Positions 10,485 through 20,689 of a stretch of DNA of 50,181 nucleotides are shown here, one piece after another. The notes under the pieces were generated by a model that saw only the letters and a list, made by a program, of their open reading frames with translations, had not been told where the DNA came from and ran no database searches. Where the stretch lies: positions 1 to 50,181 of the forward strand of contig NZ_RYFF01000041.1 in NCBI RefSeq assembly GCF_004138165.1. Reading direction: 5' to 3'. Numbering within the stretch: the stretch's first letter is position 1; each line of letters opens with the position of its first letter. The stretch is from Candidatus Chloroploca sp. Khr17 (lineage in GTDB: Bacteria > Chloroflexota > Chloroflexia > Chloroflexales > Chloroflexaceae). Position numbers and translations under genes: made by a program.

Positions 10485-10548
10485 TGGTGATCGCTCCTCA
10501 TTGTGGCCTGCGGTTCATCGGGGCAGGCATGCCCGGTAGTGTCTGTGT

Positions 10549-10606
10549 ATGCACCCCACCAGGGCACCCGCAAGGGGTGCCCGTACACGTATAATGCAAT
10601 TGCCCT
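10549..10606. repeat. partial copy of the palindromic MITE-like repeat
   Basis: The stretch carries GCACCCCACC, the GGGCACCCGCAAGGGG palindrome arm and an end ATGCAATTGCCCT that is one base off the terminal repeat (ATGCAATCGCCCT) of the full element at 17964-18251. The left end is missing. The rest of the gap 10485-10641 holds nothing else that I recognise. Confidence 0.6.
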
Positions 10607-15807: not shown

Positions 15808-15962
15808 TAGGGTGATTGCATCATACGAAACCGGATACAACAAGACGCGCTATCAGGGCACCCGCAAGGGGTGCCCCTACCGGCCGGGGGCCGGATCCGG
15901 TGTACGGGCACCCCTTGCGGGTGCCCTGGCCTGGTGCATCCACGGAAGCTGCAATCGCCCTA
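15808..15962. mobile_element. 155-bp MITE-like element
   Basis: The ends are TAGGGTGATTGCATC (15808-15822) and GCTGCAATCGCCCTA (15948-15962), which are inverted repeats with two mismatches and match the ends of the element at 17964. Inside, a 26-nt arm (15855-15880) and its complement (15902-15927, one mismatch) form a long hairpin around a CCGGGGGCCGGATCCGG-like core. No target duplication is visible. It sits 57 bp upstream of the MalT-like start and right against the truncated Rpn-type gene. Confidence 0.7.
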
Positions 15963-17422: not shown

Positions 17423-17816
17423 CGCACGTACTCCTGCACGATATGATTTGCGGGCATTTTATCACGCACGGCATGCGCATGTCCAGGTTCTGCATCGAGA
17501 CACCTAGGGCGATTGCAGCTTCCTGCCGTGGCCGTGAACGGCTCGGCTCATAGGGAGCGAAGGCCACCTTCGTGGGCTGGAGCGGATTCATTTCTGAAAG
17601 ACCATAACACCAGCGGCGTCAACGCCTCGGCTGCCGTATGCGAAGCCGGCCTACGCCGGCTGGATCAAAGCTTCGCGCCTTTGCGCCTTTGCGTCAAAAA
17701 ACGGGTCTCATTTGAAACATTCCAGCCTTCTCGCTTGCATCGATGAACCTGAACGGGTACCGTTGAAAGAACTACGTTGGCATGCCGAGCAAAGCTATGC
17801 ATCAGGGAGGTGCATC

Positions 17817-17936
17817 ATGGTATCACCATCTGGCTATGGCATCCACTGGCCGGAGGTGGATGAAGATCTGGCGCTTACGCCGTTGCTTCAGGATGCAGAG
17901 CGCATGATCGCCGAGCCGGTGAACGAAGAAGGGTAG
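17817..17936 (+). CDS. 39-residue DUF2442-like fragment or small protein
   Basis: A 39-residue frame, MVSPSGYGIHWPEVDEDLAL then TPLLQDAERMIAEPVNEEG, starts 4 nt after a strong GGGAGGTG. S-G-Y-G-I-H-W-P-x-x-D-E-D-L resembles the C-terminal part of DUF2442 proteins, which usually have ~80 residues. It is therefore probably a truncated gene that has kept or gained a ribosome site. It ends 27 bp before the MITE-like element at 17964. Confidence 0.4.
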   Translation: MVSPSGYGIHWPEVDEDLALTPLLQDAERMIAEPVNEEG

Positions 17937-17963
17937 CCCCCACCTGGCTCTGCCATCCTATGG

Positions 17964-18251
17964 TAGGGCGATTGCATCTTCCGTGCATGCACCCCACCAG
18001 GGCACCCGCAAGGGGTGCCCCTACACCGATCCCGGCCCCCGGCCCTGTAGGGGCACTCCTTGCGGGTGCCCTTGCGGGTGCCCTTGCGGGTGCCCTTGCG
18101 GGTGCCTCGTTGTTGCCGGGTGCCGCTGGTTGCATGCACATGCTGCCACATAGGTTGTTGCCGGGTGCCGCCGTTTGCGCCGCTGGTTGCATGCACATGC
18201 TGCCACATAGAGCGTATTTTTTATCCGGTGTCGTATGATGCAATCGCCCTA
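17964..18251. mobile_element. 288-bp MITE-like element with 15-bp inverted ends and 10-bp target duplication
   Basis: Perfect terminal inverted repeats TAGGGCGATTGCATC (17964-17978) and GATGCAATCGCCCTA (18237-18251) are flanked by the direct repeat CATCCTATGG at 17954-17963 and 18252-18261, as expected of transposition. The interior has the GGGCACCCGC palindrome, four tandem copies of CTTGCGGGTGCC (about 18058-18105) and a twice-repeated TGCATGCACATGCTGCCACA block (about 18132 and 18188). No coding sequence is present, so it must be moved by a transposase encoded elsewhere. Confidence 0.8.
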
Positions 18252-18286
18252 CATCCTATGGTCCGCCCAAACACAGAAAACAGCAA

Positions 18287-20602
18287 TCAGGAATCAGAAC
18301 CGGGCAGCGGAGAATGACTGGCGACCCGCAACCCGAAGAAGAAGTTGTAGCGGTCGCGCGGGTAGAAGCCGTAGCGGAACGAAGCCCGGACGGATTTCTG
18401 GTAGTCCGAATAATCTCCGCCACGCAACCGTCGTGCCTCATCTCGCTCCACATAGGCCTCGGCCCACTCATCTTCTTGCTGGTAGGGGTAGTTCTTGCCG
18501 TACTGCGTCGCGCACCACTCCCAGACGTTGCCGGCCATATCAAGAGCCCCATATGGACTGGCTCCGGATGGGTACTGATTGATAGGTGTCGTTCGACCAG
18601 TAAAGACTCGGCCAACCGAAGAAAAGAAACCCTTCGCACTGTTACAACGCCCTTCCTCCCACGTATTGCCCCACGGCCAGATGCGCCCATCCGTCCCCCG
18701 TGCCGCCTTCTCCCATTCCGCTTCGCTGGGCAAGCGGAACGAGTGGGCAGTCTGGGCACTAAGCCAGCGGCAGTAGGCGACCGCCTCGAACCAACTCACC
18801 CCAACCACCGGGTAGTCGTCGCCGTTCCATTTCGCGTTGTCCCAGTATTCTGGCTTACCAATCCCCTTTTCCTCGCGCCATTCCCATCCCACCTTCGTCC
18901 AGTAGGCGGGGTTGGTATAGCCATCGCCCTCGACAAAGGGCCGGAATTGCGCGTTAGTCACCGGGGTTTTGCCGATCCAGTAGTCGGGCAGGGTCAGCGT
19001 GTGCTGGGGTTTCTCGTTGTCGTTCGCCATTGTGTCGGCGTCGCTGCTGCCCATCAGGAAGGGGCCAGCGGGCACGTTGACCAGCGCGGGCACCCAGGGC
19101 GGCAAGGTGGCCCCGGCGCTCTGGCCCTGAGGCCTGGGCGCGGGGGCGGGCTTTTTCGCGCCAGGATCAGGTGGTTGAGTTGGTTGCTCGTGTGGTTGCG
19201 GGATAGGCGGCGTTGGGGCGGGCGATGGTGGCGCTGCCACGGCGGGCGGGGCGCGATCCGCCGGGGTGTCCGGGCTTGATGGGCCAGGATGGGCCGTTGA
19301 TGTTTCCCCGGCGCGGCGCAGGTCCTCGATTTCCCGGCGCAGGTCAGCCGCGTATTGGAAATGATGCTCTTCTAATTCCCCGGCGCGGCGCAGGTCCTCG
19401 ATTTCCCGGCGCAGGTCTTCGATCTCGATTGTGATGTGGGGCGGTGTGTCAATGCCGTACCGCGCCGCCGTGAGCTCAAGCGCGTGCAGACGGCGACGTT
19501 TCTCGGCGAGGATGACCTGGGCCTCCGTTGGAGGATCATCGGGCGCAACGGTCGTCGGGCGCTCCTGCTCGGGCGTCGGCGCGGCCACGCCAAGCAATCT
19601 TTGGAACACCGCCGCGAGCAACGAGTTGCGCGGCGCCCAGTGCGCGCCGTCACGTTTCGCGAGGCCAATCAGTTCCAGGCGCACCATGTCGTCGTCGAGG
19701 CGGTCGAAGGGTGGGCGATCGCGCAGCAGGCGGCGGGCGGCCTCCTCCAACTGGTGCGTGCGCAGGTCGTCGCGGATGCGGCGGAGCAACGGCGGCGCGT
19801 CGGCGACAATCTCCCTCGCGGCATGCGCCACGTCAGCAAGGCTCAGCGCGGTGCCCGCCGCGTGGGCGCTTGCCAGCAACTCGCCCATGCGCTGGGTTAG
19901 GTAGGGGTGACCGGCCACCTGCGCGTAGACCGCCCGGCCAAGCGTCTCGCTCAGGGCAGCTTCGACGCCTGCCGCCTGGAGGCCGTCGGCTATCAGCGTG
20001 ACCGCCTCAGGCGCGGGCAGGTCGGGCAGGTAGATCTCTTCGCACACACTGTGCAGCGACGAGACCTCGCTCACGACCATGGTGTAGAGTTCGACGCCGC
20101 CGCTGAAGATGACCTGCAACTTCTGCAATGGCAGCGAGATCAGCCGGTCGTGGAAGAAAGAACGCAGCGCGTTGCCCAGCGCCTCACGCGAGGCTGGCGG
20201 CAGCGCACCAAGCTCGTCGAGCATCAGCACGAGCCGCCCGACCTCGGTCCGCGCCAGCGCCTCAGTGAGCCGCGCCTTGAGACGGGGCGCACTGACGATC
20301 TGCCCGAGGTCACGACCAAGCGGCACGACCGTGTCGATCTGCTCGGCCAGATAGGCAAAGACCCGCTCGGGCTGTGCGCCCTGGATCGCCTGAAAGTCAA
20401 TCCGGCACAATTTCGTCGGGTGCTCGACCACACCCAGCACCTGGAAGAGCAAACTCGTCTTGCCGTTCTGCCGCCCACCGTAGACTACCCCGTAGCGCGT
20501 CACCTCCTCGCGGCAGAGGCGCAGCAGGCGCGCCAACTCGGCGGCACGCCCCCGGAACACGGGGCTGCCCGGGCCAAGGGCGGTGGTTGAGAAAAAAGCC
20601 AT
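18287..20602 (-). CDS. AAA ATPase fused to an FGE-sulfatase (C-type-lectin-like) domain
   Basis: The 771-residue protein is taken from ATG 20602 (MAFFSTTALGPGSPVFRGRA); a GTG at 20632 is the alternative. N-terminal P-loop NTPase: Walker A GGRQNGKTSLL (~42-52), Walker B RLVLMLDELG (~125), then winged-helix-like segments to ~370. A heptad region repeats EIEDLRRAGE-type units (~425-470), followed by a Pro-rich linker (~475-520). From ~525 (VNVPAGPFLMGSSD) there is a formylglycine-generating-enzyme-like fold with W-E-K-A-A-R-G and AGNVWEWC. The sulfatase-activating cysteines are not obvious, so it is probably a binding domain. The last ~40 residues look like a DGR variable region. The architecture suggests a signalling or conflict-type ATPase with a diversified binding head. 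No reverse transcriptase is in the window. Confidence 0.8.
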   Translation of the reverse strand: MAFFSTTALGPGSPVFRGRAAELARLLRLCREEVTRYGVVYGGRQNGKTSLLFQVLGVVEHPTKLCRIDFQAIQGAQPERVFAYLAEQIDTVVPLGRDLGQIVSAPRLKARLTEALARTEVGRLVLMLDELGALPPASREALGNALRSFFHDRLISLPLQKLQVIFSGGVELYTMVVSEVSSLHSVCEEIYLPDLPAPEAVTLIADGLQAAGVEAALSETLGRAVYAQVAGHPYLTQRMGELLASAHAAGTALSLADVAHAAREIVADAPPLLRRIRDDLRTHQLEEAARRLLRDRPPFDRLDDDMVRLELIGLAKRDGAHWAPRNSLLAAVFQRLLGVAAPTPEQERPTTVAPDDPPTEAQVILAEKRRRLHALELTAARYGIDTPPHITIEIEDLRREIEDLRRAGELEEHHFQYAADLRREIEDLRRAGETSTAHPGPSSPDTPADRAPPAVAAPPSPAPTPPIPQPHEQPTQPPDPGAKKPAPAPRPQGQSAGATLPPWVPALVNVPAGPFLMGSSDADTMANDNEKPQHTLTLPDYWIGKTPVTNAQFRPFVEGDGYTNPAYWTKVGWEWREEKGIGKPEYWDNAKWNGDDYPVVGVSWFEAVAYCRWLSAQTAHSFRLPSEAEWEKAARGTDGRIWPWGNTWEEGRCNSAKGFFSSVGRVFTGRTTPINQYPSGASPYGALDMAGNVWEWCATQYGKNYPYQQEDEWAEAYVERDEARRLRGGDYSDYQKSVRASFRYGFYPRDRYNFFFGLRVASHSPLPGSDS
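18321..18427 (-). other. candidate diversity-generating-retroelement variable region
   Basis: It encodes RGGDYSDYQKSVRASFRYGF then YPRDRYNFFFGLRVA. In FGE-type DGR targets this segment reads R-G-G-S-W-N-N-N-x-x-x-V-R-A-x-x-R-N-N-N-x-P-x-x-R-N-N-N-x-G-F-R-V, and template adenines in AAC codons are mutated. Here those positions carry Y, D, S, F, G and N, mostly NNC codons (GAC, TAC, TTC, GGC, AAC), as expected for A-to-N change of AAC. No template repeat or reverse transcriptase was found within the window. Confidence 0.5.
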
Positions 20603-20689
20603 ATGCGCCGCGCTGCTCCATAAACCGTCCACGTCGGATATGACTCCATTGTAACAGACGAATGCGTGCGTACGTACGGATCAGCGAGG

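Follow-up and report, generated by a model that had tools for sequence, protein, structure and literature searches.

A MITE family of Candidatus Chloroploca with the ends of an ISAs1-family insertion sequence as its likely driver

Small gene-less elements that are moved by the transposase of another element have been described in several bacteria. In the accessible parts of the respective papers, MITEPye1 of Paracoccus yeei is driven by IS1182 (PMC11578231), the TIMEs of Pseudomonas are driven by Tn3 (PMC4133298), and three further MITEs are reported whose driver is not named there (PMC5756416). The accessible text of PMC10907252 describes MITE-like repeats at the diversity-generating retroelement loci of Thiohalocapsa PB-PSB1, a multicellular bacterium. 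An ISAs1-driven MITE does not appear in the accessible parts of PMC4133298, PMC3542288, PMC5756416, PMC3281130 and PMC11578231. In the open literature, as far as its text is accessible, neither the family analysed here nor any MITE driven by ISAs1 is described, and the suggestion of an earlier note on this DNA that the family is undescribed is uncontradicted there. In the genome paper of Candidatus Chloroploca asiatica (PMC6180586), a term search of the main text found neither 'transpos' nor 'MITE'. The only open paper that pairs 'Chloroploca' with 'transpos' is PMC10907252, where, in its accessible text, 'Chloroploca' occurs in the reference list only.

The stretch of DNA analysed here, called the window, has a length of 50,181 nucleotides and lies on contig C149 of the window genome (G000; 6.38 Mb in 171 contigs). 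At positions 17964–18251 it contains a 288-bp element with perfect 15-bp TIRs, which were located by sequence match as TAGGGCGATTGCATC at 17964–17978 (plus strand) and its reverse complement at 18237–18251 (minus strand). The element is flanked by the target-site duplication CATCCTATGG at 17954–17963, which is present as a single copy in the empty site of the sister genome G001, and at 18252–18261, where it matches the left copy exactly. The earlier note had reported perfect 15-bp TIRs with a 10-bp duplication at 17954–18261 and had called the element non-autonomous. The coordinates are exact, and the TIRs, the duplication and the non-autonomous character are all borne out. The sole frame of at least 120 amino acids that covers most of the element is a 122-aa frame at 17875–18243 on the minus strand, which gave no Pfam or NCBIfam match. 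Two convergent genes face the element with their 3' ends; one is a short frame with its stop at 17936 that matches only positions 45–68 of the 72-position DUF2442 profile, and the other, at 18287–20632 on the minus strand, encodes an AAA domain and, at its C terminus, an FGE-sulfatase domain.

The interiors of the family are near-palindromic. In the window element, a palindrome at 17993–18078 with 33-nt arms of 91% complementarity is common to the copies of the 155-bp type described below, and a tandem array of the 12-bp unit CCTTGCGGGTGC occupies 18058–18105, which is unexpanded in the aligned 155-bp copies. A pair of 32-nt direct repeats with a spacing of 57 occupies 18122–18153 and 18179–18210 within 18122–18210. 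The element is short, transposase-free and bounded by TIRs, as a MITE is; it also has a target-site duplication with an empty site, occurs in multiple copies, and shares its TIRs with an autonomous type of element, namely the ISAs1 element on contig C160, which is itself broken. Tandem arrays with units of about 12 bp were also observed inside the MITEs of L305, L313 and L318, some of them at contig starts, and such arrays may break assemblies and vary between strains.

The element used as a query against G000 gave 122 matching pieces. With up to two mismatches, the TIR gave 211 matches (102 forward and 109 reverse), compared with 8 (3 and 5) when the pattern was reversed as a control. Among the matches listed, 100 of the 211 TIR matches together with the element and IS matches formed 95 clusters, two of which were IS ends on C160 and were set aside, leaving 93 sampled loci. 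A TIR pair was accepted when each end had at most four mismatches, both ends together at most five and one end at most two, at a distance of 60–700 bp; under this rule, 62 of these 93 loci have a pair and 31 do not. The flanking 10-mers match at 8/10 or better in 35 of the 62 paired copies, where 17 are identical, 10 match at 9/10 and 8 at 8/10, as against 6 of 3,782 mispaired flank pairs (0.16%), which reach 8/10 and never nine or ten. An exact 9-bp duplication fits three more copies (L186, L206 and L250), and an 11-bp duplication with one mismatch fits L179; the wider rule that admits these lengths is satisfied by 6 of the 3,782 mispaired flanks. The 27 pairs below 8/10, minus these four, leave 23 without any duplication, including the window copy at 15808–15962. 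The earlier note had proposed a genome search with the TIRs and held that the match would be coincidental if other copies lacked the ends or the flanking duplications; the 62 paired copies and the 35 duplications indicate the opposite. A chance match is ruled out by the copy number, the duplications and the empty site.

An all-against-all comparison of the 62 copies gave clusters of 41 and 17 copies and four singles. The larger cluster is the 155-bp type, whose core consists of 15 copies of 150–157 bp with a mean pairwise identity of 0.86, and the smaller is the 195-bp type, with a core of 13 copies of 190–197 bp with a mean pairwise identity of 0.81, where the two types have their ends in common. 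Within the 155-bp type, the window element represents a long form; it begins with the left half of the 155-bp form, continues with the 12-bp tandem array and the repeated 32-nt block, and ends with a right half that is also present in L209 and L229. Its closest counterpart within G000 is L206 (G000:C87:7574-7865), a copy of 292 bp with 90% identity from end to end. L206 also carries an exact 9-bp duplication of its own, CTGGAAGCC, so the long form seems to have transposed as one piece. The window holds three other members of the family: a second full copy of the 155-bp type at 15808–15962 on the minus strand, whose duplication is unmatched (2/10); a decayed copy of the 195-bp type at 17505–17667 with one TIR left at 17505–17519; and a fragment of the 155-bp type at 10542–10588. 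The interior palindromes that the earlier note had seen elsewhere in the window, GGGCACCCGC or its reverse complement at 10562, 15856 and 15917, fall in this fragment and in the second full copy, and thus belong to the same family.

The sister genomes record the movement of the family. On contig C121 of G001, 145 bp of the flank upstream of the window element (97% identity) and 84 bp of the downstream flank (93%) meet at a single CATCCTATGG, and the element is absent. The G002 region that matches the window site lacks a larger stretch, and thus is not a clean empty site. For L194 and L206, the element is absent at the matching sites in both G001 and G002, where the junctions are not clean. On contig C84 of G001 (L125, 1442–1898), a 252-bp element of the 155-bp type is inserted within an element of the 195-bp type; both 10-bp duplications are exact (CGAGCGAAGG and GGTGGCGTAG), and without the inner one and one duplication copy the outer element measures exactly 195 bp. 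Together with the empty site and the target duplications, this nesting shows mobility. L194 (around 896–1010) also contains a palindromic repeat of another kind, about 110 bp long, with the ends TGCAAAGTCC and GGACTTTGCA and many matches in G001 and G002. A 195-bp MITE adjoins it, and the duplication of this MITE, GTGCAAAGTC, overlaps the repeat end; the repeat possibly represents a second, unrelated MITE family.

In the set of 61 genomes searched, the MITE family is restricted to one genus, whose genomes are G000, G001 and G002. The last is taken as Candidatus Chloroploca asiatica B7-9, because the 769-bp IS derivative described below has identical coordinates in the named contig of that organism, NZ_LYXE01000109.1, and in G002:C108. 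The YAGGGCGATTGCATC ends, with at most one mismatch, number 163, 187 and 210 in the three genomes of the genus and 0–12 in the remaining 58 genomes, which all belong to the same family or order. Half of these numbers corresponds to approximately 80–105 element equivalents per genome of the genus. When up to 12 candidates were scored per genome, strong matches to the element itself were found only in the three genomes of the genus, and short interior matches in five other genomes. The plasmid records gave no match to the family.

The search for a transposase was made with the ISAs1 family profile (NF033564), which matches one place in G000, on C160, at 349.7 bits compared with a cut-off of 70. 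The IS at this place (G000:C160:35788-37020) is 1,233 bp long and has YAGGGCGATTGCATCTT at both ends, spanning from TAGGGCGATTGCATCTT to CAGGGCGATTGCATCTT at the other end; its 15-bp ends are those of the MITE, the first base being T or C. Its transposase contains the domains PF13808 (DDE_Tnp_1_assoc) and PF01609 (DDE_Tnp_1), and both these domains and the NF033564 score place it in the ISAs1 family. The earlier note had expected that the element could be grouped with its transposase through the TIR and the duplication length, and that a full-length IS with the same ends might be found. The grouping leads to ISAs1, and the C160 IS is such a full-length element, but its transposase has an in-frame stop: a TAG follows 158 codons, and the family profile stops at 307 of 314. 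This broken IS is the only full-length parent in G000, and no recognisable target duplication was found at its flanks. What it has in common with the MITE is only about 15–18 bp at each end, so the MITE may or may not descend from it by internal deletion.

The ISAs1 elements of related genomes were compared in the same manner. Facing ends within three mismatches are found at 11 of 33 loci, and 22 have no facing pair. Duplications of 10/10 flank L138, L139, L143 and L162, and one of 9/10 flanks L063 and L142, which were read as one element in two collections; no duplication (5/10 or less) is found at L064 and L136, also read as one, or at L076, L140 and L141. The closest related ISAs1 elements are about 1.23 kb long. 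Target duplications in the ISAs1 family range from 8 to 10 bp, and those of the MITE are typically 10 bp, with 9 bp in three copies and 11 bp in one. The ends, the duplication length and the transposase family therefore agree between the ISAs1 elements and the MITE.

The C160 IS used as a query gave no match in G001, and in G002 gave only a 769-bp derivative and a 29-bp end piece, with no full-length match. ISAs1 sequences in the sister genomes consist of a frame of another subgroup in G001 and several fragments in G002. The shortened 769-bp derivative (L076, 1936–2704) lies in Candidatus Chloroploca asiatica NZ_LYXE01000109.1 (G002:C108), and a 366-bp element in the window genome (L218, 701–1066) partly matches the IS. 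Neither has a clear duplication, and the two are possible steps from the IS to the MITE.

From these comparisons, the element is very probably a MITE, the ends of which a DDE transposase of the ISAs1 family recognises in trans. In this reading, a near-palindromic stretch of about 290 bp that has no recognisable gene would ride on this transposase, which would cut at the YAGGGCGATTGCATC ends; staggered strand transfer at insertion would then produce the 10-bp target duplication, occasionally one of 9 or 11 bp, and copies would have built up in the Candidatus Chloroploca lineage. We infer the action in trans on the MITE ends, the chemistry of transposition and its timing. As the parent transposase carries a stop codon, the family may be immobile now, or it may rely on a copy that the draft assembly lacks. 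A transposase of a different family, sharing ends and duplication length with ISAs1 by coincidence, might move the MITE instead, considering that the resident ISAs1 parent is broken and single whereas the TIRs are very numerous, and that the transposase search covered the ISAs1 family only. This is very unlikely, because the IS between exactly these ends in G000 is an ISAs1 element, and the ISAs1 elements of relatives bear the same or similar ends, several of them with exact 10-bp duplications.

A multi-copy parent hidden at contig edges of G001 and G002 was also considered and rejected. Nine of ten contig starts with an inward TIR begin inside MITE-type sequence, and the tenth (L312) has 74 bp of MITE beside the TIR and other sequence before it; none of the ten matches the C160 IS among the matches listed, with three targets per query. 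The ISAs1-like edge fragments of G002:C79, C126 and C175 contain no such TIR with up to three mismatches in their first 500–600 bp. L319 of G001, which belongs to the other ISAs1 subgroup and has an open frame of 437 amino acids, has no such end at its borders within four mismatches, apart from a single TIR in the wrong orientation, about 30 bp past the gene.

An alternative is that the element is a structured RNA or bidirectional terminator between convergent genes, kept for its hairpin rather than for mobility. The predicted fold of the window element reaches −164.5 kcal/mol, with z = −7.3 relative to 200 shuffles. Structure tests were performed on 13 copies of each type, after L209 and L229, whose right halves differ, had been left out of the 15 copies with 150–157 bp. 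In the 195-bp type, two-sided changes with pairing kept occur in 8 of 60 pairs, compared with a shuffled mean of 3.7 (0 of 500 shuffles reach 8) and with 0–3 in slid controls; the alignment tested also supplied the structure, and kinship among copies can raise such values. The tally of pair types shows no increase in this type (26 compared with 24.5 after shuffling, where 104 of 500 shuffles reach 26), and in the 155-bp type double changes occur in 1 of 53 pairs. The RNAalifold covariation terms are slightly unfavourable, at +0.28 kcal/mol for the 195-bp type and +0.40 kcal/mol for the 155-bp type, and Rfam gave no match in the window at the gathering score. The insertion context was evaluated for 32 of the 35 copies with a duplication of at least 8/10, namely those flanked by 400 bp or more on either side, using control points 350 bp away; open frames of at least 150 codons are crossed less often by the insertions, at 18 of 32 insertion points compared with 55 of 64 control points (rank test, p = 0.025). 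The pair counts weakly suggest a possible, perhaps secondary, hairpin role in the 195-bp type only. That the hairpin rather than mobility accounts for the element is highly improbable, since duplications, an empty site and a nested copy all show that the family is mobile.

A wider proposal is one that we consider rather unlikely as a whole: one ISAs1 transposase may have given rise to two or more unrelated, near-palindromic MITE types with nothing but the ends in common, selection may keep their palindromic interior, and the MITEs may have outlived the transposase. The selected interior might then act as an RNA or cruciform structure, such as a bidirectional terminator that makes insertions tolerable.

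The variable part of the neighbouring FGE-domain gene (18287–20632, minus strand) lies at about 18311–18392. When the 3' end of this gene is aligned with a template-like repeat at G000:C148:12923-13001 (L278), all 14 mismatches are at A in the template, and there is one 3-nt gap; beside the repeat lie a reverse transcriptase (PF00078), a bAvd protein (PF22296) and another FGE-domain gene. The FGE-domain gene of the window is thus likely to be a remote target of a diversity-generating retroelement, judged from its sequence. Three similar stretches, L275–L277, have mixed mismatches and are possible additional variable regions. As the stop codon of the FGE-domain gene is 35 bp from the end of the element and 25 bp from that of its duplication, and as the 3' end of this gene differs from the template-like repeat at 14 positions that are all A in the template, the element could be imagined as a working part of the retroelement target, for example a cruciform beside the variable region; there is scarcely any likelihood of this, because G001 has an FGE-related sequence at the same place (71% over 649 bp) without the element. 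The empty site largely refutes such a role, and the family does not as a rule occur with variable regions: this FGE domain was matched at only 1 of the 93 sampled loci, the window's own, so chance is enough to explain the placement.

The assignment to ISAs1 names a transposase family for a high-copy repeat in filamentous anoxygenic phototrophs of one genus, and the MITE family accounts for some contig ends in draft Chloroploca assemblies. The family also offers a natural case of the spread and persistence of short palindromic passengers after the driver breaks, and its insertions can serve as polymorphic markers between Candidatus Chloroploca species.

Compared with the described systems, the window element represents a new MITE family of a known kind that is likely driven by ISAs1, where we infer the action in trans. 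The ISs of the ISAs1 family (NF033564; DDE_Tnp_1_assoc and DDE_Tnp_1) have the same or similar termini, several with 10-bp duplications, whereas the window element has no transposase and only about 15–18 bp in common with them at each end. Like MITEPye1 and the TIMEs, as described in the accessible parts of their papers, it is small and gene-less, its TIRs match those of an autonomous element elsewhere, it is flanked by duplications, and long RNA stem-loops are predicted for it. Unlike those elements, it is associated with another transposase family, and its copy number of about 80–105 contrasts with 1–3 per chromosome or usually a single copy in the same accounts. It also resembles the MITE-like repeats of Thiohalocapsa PB-PSB1, which the accessible text of PMC10907252 presents as IS-derived, with predicted stem-loops and a location beside retroelement loci, but differs from them in that 1 of the 93 sampled family loci lies beside a retroelement target.
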